DNA of 64,000 bases from NCBI RefSeq assembly GCF_016900775.1, contig NZ_JACJKN010000004.1:1-64000 (forward strand). The letters run 5' to 3'. This DNA is from Olsenella uli. Its GTDB lineage: Bacteria; Actinomycetota; Coriobacteriia; Coriobacteriales; Atopobiaceae. Position numbers and translations under genes: made by a program. The notes beneath the pieces are model-generated. The model ran no database searches and was not told the origin of the DNA. It worked only from the letters and a program-made list of their open reading frames with translations. Positions 14,187 to 15,691 of this stretch are shown piece by piece. The first letter of the stretch is position 1. The number at the start of each line of letters is the position of its first letter.

Positions 14187-15548
14187 TTACTCAGTCGTGA
14201 CAGAGTCATCCGCGGACGGTCGTGTTTTGCCGGCGGACGGCACGCGTCCCACGTCCCGGGCAAGAAGGTCGATGAGCTCGCGGCTGCTGTGCAGCCCCAG
14301 AACCTCGTAGCCCTGCGCGCGATAGGCGTTCACGGTGCCGCGCGCCACGTGCAGGGACTCGCAGATCTCCGGCGTGGTTCGACCGAGCGCGATCTCCGTG
14401 AGCACGTGGGCCTGGAGCTCCCCCGCCCCGCGGCCGCGAAGGTAGAGCACGCAGCGCTCCTCGTCGAGCGACGTGGTCACGCGCTCGCGCGGCCAGAGGA
14501 GGTAGGGCGCAAGCGCCGCCACCGCGCAGGCGTTGCCGATGATGCCGAGCGCATTGAGGCTGAGGAACCCGCCGGGCACCTGAACCTCGAGCCCGTACCA
14601 TCCGCCTCCGGCGAGCAGCCCAAAGAGGGCAAGCGCGAGCAGCACGAGACCGAGCCGCGAGGTTGCCCAGCGCGGGCGCACCCGCATCCCGCGCAGGCGC
14701 GCGTAGACAAGGAGCACGGCCCAGGGCACGGCCAGGGAGGCGGGGACGAGGAGGAGCCCAAGCGCCTGGTCCCACGAGCTGCCGCTCGTCATTGTCACGC
14801 GGGCGAGCAGGCGCAGGGATAGGCCGACGCAGAGCGCCATCGCCATGAGCGCGGGCGCGCCGGGCGAGGCCACGTCAAAGGCCGCGGGCACGGCCCCCGC
14901 GCCCCACACGACCGGGCGCAGCTCGTCGAGCGAGGCCACGCCGAGCTTCTCGCATGCGCGCGAGCGATACGTCATGACGGTGGACGCGCTCAGCCCCAGC
15001 GCGGCGGCCACCTGCGCGACAGTGCTTCCCGTGGCGAGCGCCTCCGCAATTGCGCGCTCGCGCTCGCTGAGGGCGTCTGCCCCGCCAAGCCCGTCGAGCG
15101 GAGAGGCCGAGGCCGTGGGCCTCACCGCGGCACGAAGCGCCCACACGGGAAGCGCCGTGCCCCAGAGGGCCCATGACCCCCAGCGTAGGATGCGCTCGGC
15201 CCAGCCGAGGGCGCGCACGAGACCGCCCATCTTCCAGGGGAACCACAGGTAGTACACCGCCGCAACCAACGCGTAGGCGAGAAGAACCGCAAGCCCGGCG
15301 CCCGTCAGAGCGCATCGCCGGCACTCGAGACGATCGCGGAGCGCCCACGCAACGGCCGCCGTCACCGCAGAGAGCGGAATCGCCGACGTCCAGAGAAAGT
15401 AGCTCAGCGGCAGCCCGTAGCCCTCCCAGCCGGAGGACAGCTGCACGTTGTACCTATACGCCTGATAGGCCGCCGGCAGCAGTAGGAGCGCCAGACCCCA
15501 TGCCGCCCACAGCGCCGTCCGCGCCACCGTCCGTAACCGCTCGCCCAT
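14187..15548 (-). CDS. Membrane-integrated LuxR-type regulator with two HTH domains
   Basis: A 453-residue protein that joins membrane helices to DNA-binding domains. Four or five hydrophobic segments (residues about 10-140) lead to a complete LuxR/GerE HTH (ALSERERAIAEALATGSTVA to EKLGVASLDEL, about 157-215). A second group of about four membrane segments follows (235-355), then another, more divergent LuxR HTH (LTEIALGRTTPEICESLHVA, about 380-440). Membrane LuxR proteins are numerous in Coriobacteriia, usually with one C-terminal HTH; the doubled layout suggests an internal duplication. The start at 15548 follows GGAAAGGGG. Likely a signal-responsive transcription factor; no target or signal is evident. 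Confidence 0.85.
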   Translation of the reverse strand: MGERLRTVARTALWAAWGLALLLLPAAYQAYRYNVQLSSGWEGYGLPLSYFLWTSAIPLSAVTAAVAWALRDRLECRRCALTGAGLAVLLAYALVAAVYYLWFPWKMGGLVRALGWAERILRWGSWALWGTALPVWALRAAVRPTASASPLDGLGGADALSERERAIAEALATGSTVAQVAAALGLSASTVMTYRSRACEKLGVASLDELRPVVWGAGAVPAAFDVASPGAPALMAMALCVGLSLRLLARVTMTSGSSWDQALGLLLVPASLAVPWAVLLVYARLRGMRVRPRWATSRLGLVLLALALFGLLAGGGWYGLEVQVPGGFLSLNALGIIGNACAVAALAPYLLWPRERVTTSLDEERCVLYLRGRGAGELQAHVLTEIALGRTTPEICESLHVARGTVNAYRAQGYEVLGLHSSRELIDLLARDVGRVPSAGKTRPSADDSVTTE

Positions 15549-15657
15549 GGGAACCCCTTTCCGTCCTTCTCGCCTGACTACCAAATCGTAGGCCCCGAGC
15601 AGGTCGGATGTCATGTCGTAAAGGTTATGCGAGTGGCGTGACACGGCCTCTCCGGCC

Positions 15658-15691
15658 AAAAAAAGCGCCCCGGGTGAGAAACCCGGGGCGC
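15658..15691 (-). terminator. Terminator of the infC-rpmI-rplT operon
   Basis: On the minus strand, GCGCCCCGGGT pairs perfectly with ACCCGGGGCGC across a 5-nt loop and is followed by seven T. A short GGGGACGGTCCCC palindrome (15701-15713), like the core of the larger repeats, lies between it and the rplT stop. Confidence 0.93.

Follow-up and report, generated by a model that had tools for sequence, protein, structure and literature searches.

Why a single membrane protein should carry two DNA-binding domains, and whether these domains would read one DNA site or two, is the question raised by a gene at positions 14187 to 15548 (minus strand) of the window, the whole 64,000-nucleotide stretch of DNA that was analyzed. 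The gene is predicted to encode a double-HTH membrane regulator of 453 amino acids (aa), based on its open reading frame, Pfam matches, and about 20 orthologues. The ATG at 15548 and the stop at 14187 on the minus strand agreed exactly with a preliminary description of the locus, and a ribosome-binding stretch, GGAAAGGGG, was found directly 5' of the ATG. The host organism was a Thermophilibacter-like gut bacterium (92% protein identity to Thermophilibacter provencensis).

The protein was laid out as four TM helices, a GerE/LuxR-type HTH (HTH1), four further TM helices, and a second GerE/LuxR-type HTH (HTH2). The first membrane block (TM helices 1 to 4, aa 1 to 146; 15111 to 15548, minus strand) and the second (TM helices 5 to 8, aa 229 to 354; 14487 to 14864, minus strand) were assigned from hydropathy, an AlphaFold2 model, and loop charges. 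Hydropathy alone recovered seven of the eight TM helices, missing the Trp-rich fourth, and the AlphaFold2 model, built from 21 orthologues (pLDDT, 73; pTM, 0.56), showed HTH1 and then HTH2, each after a set of four membrane helices. Across 21 sequences, the short loops predicted to be inner carried 2.1 to 5.0 Lys plus Arg residues per loop and those predicted to be outer carried 0 to 1.4; these charges place the N terminus inside and both HTHs in the cytoplasm in the predicted topology. No known fold was found for the membrane part: Foldseek returned no match with an E value of ≤0.001, and in the comparison with an MFS-like transporter domain, matches to transporters had rmsd values of >20 Å on a model with a pLDDT of 73.

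HTH1 (aa 157 to 214; 14907 to 15080, minus strand) and HTH2 (aa 377 to 434; 14247 to 14420, minus strand) were delimited by Pfam, the AlphaFold2 model, and alignment. The two GerE stretches found by Pfam (whole-protein E = 6e-22) place the protein in the LuxR/GerE HTH superfamily (PF00196), and when each HTH was scored separately in a genome-wide GerE search, HTH1 reached 53.5 bits and HTH2 reached 31.7 bits (gathering cutoff, 23.5 bits). In the model, the HTHs extended over about aa 162 to 210 and 377 to 432, and these parts matched the structures of VraR, NarL, LiaR, and GerE (TM-score of 0.64 to 0.79, normalized to the HTH). The HTH fold is shared with GerE and with NarL/FixJ response regulators, whereas the window's protein differs from both in being membrane bound, in having two HTHs, and in having no receiver domain; no Pfam match to a receiver (REC) domain was found, and NCBIfam response-regulator models matched the HTHs only. 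The membrane-HTH-membrane-HTH order proposed in the preliminary description therefore held, with two genuine LuxR-type HTHs above the Pfam cutoff, both predicted to be cytoplasmic, and with GerE-, NarL-, and VraR-like folds in the structural model.

A search of 30 congeners found orthologues that were full length or nearly so (about 20) in most of them, with identities down to 40 to 44%. Even at 40% identity, these orthologues retained the complete layout together with both recognition helices, which argues that the layout is the product of neither chance nor an alignment artefact. Single-HTH homologues, which the preliminary description had named as evidence that the second HTH might be such an artefact, were sought, and every full-length homologue carried both HTHs; together with the Pfam scores, this rules the artefact out. 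The sole exception was an in-frame, internally deleted copy of 216 aa on contig 24 of a MAG, in which TM helices 1 to 3 were fused to HTH2 and the promoter element described below was intact; the deletion may have arisen naturally or through misassembly of the MAG. One orthologue was reported with a single in-frame TGA and may be a pseudogene or reflect a sequencing error.

Conservation was highest in HTH2 (0.85), followed by the lead-in directly before it (aa 355 to 376; 0.80) and HTH1 (0.79); the membrane blocks were less conserved (0.52 and 0.58). Recognition-helix residues showed little or no variation in either HTH (T193, Y194, R195, and R197 in HTH1 and N407, A408, Y409, R410, and A411 in HTH2), and, on the strength of this near invariance, both HTHs are probably in use. 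The C-terminal tail (aa 435 to 453; 14190 to 14246, minus strand), which contains a VPSAGK motif within the pattern DVGxVPSAGK..PSA, was strongly conserved among orthologues, although model confidence was low there, and may serve in docking or processing.

Among described regulators, the nearest are DadR, HcdR, and CadR of E. lenta, recently reported LuxR regulators of Coriobacteriia with 10 to 12 TM helices and one C-terminal HTH (PMC9734109). A further mark of this group is small-molecule-dependent activation of a specific gene. The window's protein resembles this DadR type in having a polytopic membrane part and a C-terminal LuxR HTH, in being a one-component regulator, and in being abundant in the same class, and it probably works similarly. 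It differs in carrying 4+4 TM helices in two blocks instead of 10 to 12 N-terminal ones and in having the additional internal HTH1, where the DadR type has a single C-terminal HTH; because of these two departures, it was not filed as a member. Like the proteins in a survey of transmembrane regulators, in which Coriobacteriia were enriched and multi-pass forms were included (PMC10269533), it bears DNA binding on a membrane protein. In a term search, neither GerE/LuxR nor a pair of DNA-binding domains turned up in that survey, and no paper on double LuxR/GerE proteins was found in a literature search largely confined to nonsubscription papers.

The preliminary description had regarded the two halves of the protein as similar and had suggested an internal duplication. 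Similarity was upheld for the HTHs, which are homologous to each other (hhalign E = 8e-9); between the membrane blocks, none was detected (hhalign probability of 0.29% versus 0.14 to 0.20% for reversed-sequence controls). Duplication of a whole TM-plus-HTH block was not supported, as the TM parts were not detectably related. In a tree of 105 HTH domains that included the copies from 47 double-HTH proteins, all 47 C-terminal copies fell on one side of a branch (support, 79/82), and these copies grouped (99/94) with the lone C-terminal HTHs of five other membrane LuxRs, among them Eggerthella-type proteins, leaving every N-terminal copy outside; with 67 columns in the tree, the deeper branching order was not settled. 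The tree indicates that HTH1 and HTH2 are two old, distinct lineages that separated before the double-HTH proteins diversified, and the internal-duplication reading is judged mostly wrong. HTH2 shares its lineage with the single C-terminal HTHs of the order's membrane LuxRs (99/94, in a tree without DadR itself). Read most simply, HTH2 is the HTH typical of membrane LuxRs, and HTH1 belongs to an extra, separate lineage that accompanies it in fixed order.

These lineages bear on the alternative that one HTH binds DNA and the other is a dimerization or regulatory module, the protein acting as an ordinary homodimer like DadR. The lower Pfam score of HTH2 and its departure from the usual LTxRE start (GAGELQ/GLSExQ instead) are consistent with this alternative, as is the sufficiency of a C-terminal HTH of the HTH2 lineage in single-HTH membrane LuxRs (PMC9734109). 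Retention of the recognition-helix residues in both HTHs across the orthologues argues against it, and it is considered unlikely.

Seven proteins with any GerE domain were found in the window's genome, four of them with two. Besides the window's protein, these were a TM-HTH1-TM-HTH2 paralogue on contig 35 (about 38 kb); a protein on contig 10 (about 35.5 kb) in which HTH1 and HTH2 in tandem precede a single TM helix and extracellular PASTA domains; and, on contig 24 (136 kb), a tandem HTH-HTH protein. HTH types and order in the double-GerE paralogues were the same as in the window's protein, but the number of TM helices differed, or the HTHs were in tandem with a single TM helix and a PASTA or other extracellular part. 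The contig 35 paralogue was followed by two small same-strand proteins with signal-peptide-like N termini, which may be its targets, and the contig 10 protein represents a possible direct, kinase-free route from cell wall sensing to transcription.

Many more doubles were found across Coriobacteriales. Their HTHs were separated by 3 to about 11 hydrophobic helices or by none at all, and HTH1 followed by HTH2 was seen in TM-HTH1-TM-HTH2, HTH1-TM-HTH2, and HTH1-HTH2-TM-PASTA forms as well as in soluble tandems. Very long double-HTH membrane proteins (about 800 to 970 aa, with 4 to 8 hydrophobic helices before HTH1 and about 8 to 12 between the HTHs) occurred in several Coriobacteriales genera. 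No match to a double HTH was found outside Coriobacteriales among 296 Actinomycetota genomes searched with a profile of the tandem form (E ≤ 1e-12). The HTHs were sorted with profiles made solely from the family of the window's protein. In a first set of 21 other doubles, the N-terminal copy never fit HTH2 better than HTH1 (21/21, with one tie), and the C-terminal copy scored better with HTH2 in 19; in a second set of 22, chosen by a tandem query and including near-copies and one protein related to the window's family, the N-terminal copy was HTH1-like in 22/22 and the C-terminal copy was HTH2-like in 19/22. Because HTH type and order were constant over 40-odd doubles with varied membrane parts, soluble tandems included, the pair is interpreted as a functional unit. 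In an AlphaFold2 model of a tandem relative, each HTH was well folded, the orientation of one HTH to the other was not fixed (pTM, 0.47), and no PDB match spanning both HTHs was found. The window's protein is one of a wider and apparently undescribed class of double regulators in Coriobacteriales, and its novelty is a new architecture within membrane LuxR regulators.

The surroundings of the gene were examined for a DNA site. The same upstream order, in the same direction, was present in 14/14 loci (relA, an MBL-fold hydrolase gene, a ferritin gene, infC, rpmI, rplT, and then the regulator gene); these neighbors are housekeeping genes, and no metabolic target gene was apparent beside the regulator. 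A strong intrinsic terminator after rplT (15665 to 15691, minus strand) parts rplT from the regulator gene and is followed by the gene's own promoter-like site, a sigma-70-like ATGACA - 18 nt - TACGAT (15585 to 15614, minus strand) with TACGAT as the -10. Overlapping the -35 was a putative operator, TGTC-N9-GCATA-N8-GACATGAC (15610 to 15643, minus strand), which was found once in the genome.

An element of the form TGTC-N9/10-GCATA-N8-GACRTGAC (34 to 35 bp), upstream of and overlapping the -35, was common to nearly all orthologues, to about 44% protein identity, a conservation that is partly that of an ordinary promoter because the -35 hexamer lies inside the element. The pattern TGTCN{8,11}GCATAN{6,9}GACRTGAC had exactly one occurrence in each of 14 gene-bearing genomes, in every case immediately upstream of the regulator, and the reversed pattern, used as a control, occurred 0 times. 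The element was absent from 19/19 genomes without an intact close orthologue, an absence that is partly automatic, since the element is that gene's promoter; it was present in the MAG with the internally deleted gene. A regulon search that allowed up to 3 mismatches returned the regulator's own gene plus isolated 3-mismatch matches, each different. A 43% identical relative was encoded in another Coriobacteriales family (MAG contig 35), with an apparent variant of the promoter element nearby; as that MAG is 85% complete, transfer or contamination is possible.

That the conserved element was found only at the regulator's own promoter suggests self-control, and we infer that autoregulation is the best-supported target. 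The element could instead be bound by another regulator or be simply an extended promoter, with the protein acting on unlinked targets; overlap with the -35 and the well-conserved -35/-10 spacing would fit such an arrangement, but another regulator's element should be carried by further genes, and this one was found once per genome in 14 genomes. This alternative is regarded as doubtful, if worth keeping in view. A third alternative, raised in the preliminary description, is DNA bridging, in which HTH1 and HTH2 would bind two separate sites and tether both to the membrane. Separate specificities are conceivable, given that the two HTHs differ in lineage and recognition helix and have a whole membrane block between them. 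The HTHs are adjacent in soluble relatives, however, which suits one composite site, and the single conserved element is unique in the genome and lies at the regulator's own promoter, which fits an HTH pair on one operator better than two sites. Bridging is accordingly judged improbable.

LuxR HTHs normally bind DNA as homodimers. The reading preferred here, to which a probability of roughly 0.55 is assigned, is that the protein is a membrane one-component regulator in which HTH1 and HTH2 would form a built-in heterodimer on a composite operator at its own promoter. The protein would be a membrane-embedded transcription regulator with its HTHs joined through the second four-helix block, and when a signal is perceived within or across the membrane, its two membrane blocks would shift against one another, so that the HTHs gain or lose the register needed for DNA binding. 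The covalent HTH1-HTH2 heterodimer would then read one composite, imperfectly symmetric operator over its own -35, and the outcome would be autoregulation, by activation or repression. We infer both the membrane sensing and the heterodimer action from the architecture. The inverted repeat in the element reached 12/15 pairs in one clade and was weaker elsewhere; pairing in the window's clade was limited to the outer TGTC/GACA arms (5/15, no better than shuffles). A heterodimer might favor such an imperfect dyad.

Extended to the order, and held more tentatively, the reading describes a Coriobacteriales class in which an ordered pair of noninterchangeable HTHs, HTH1 and HTH2, stands beside or between varied membrane blocks and a signal alters the spacing of the heterodimer over a composite operator. 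The protein bears on how a multi-pass regulator might reach DNA while staying in the membrane: two covalently joined, dissimilar HTHs with membrane helices between them, and a predicted operator that occurs once per genome, make a compact test system in which the HTHs and the half-sites are open to mutation one at a time. Should the pairing rule prove correct, many membrane LuxR proteins of Coriobacteriales would be built-in heterodimers, and the strategy for finding their binding sites would change.
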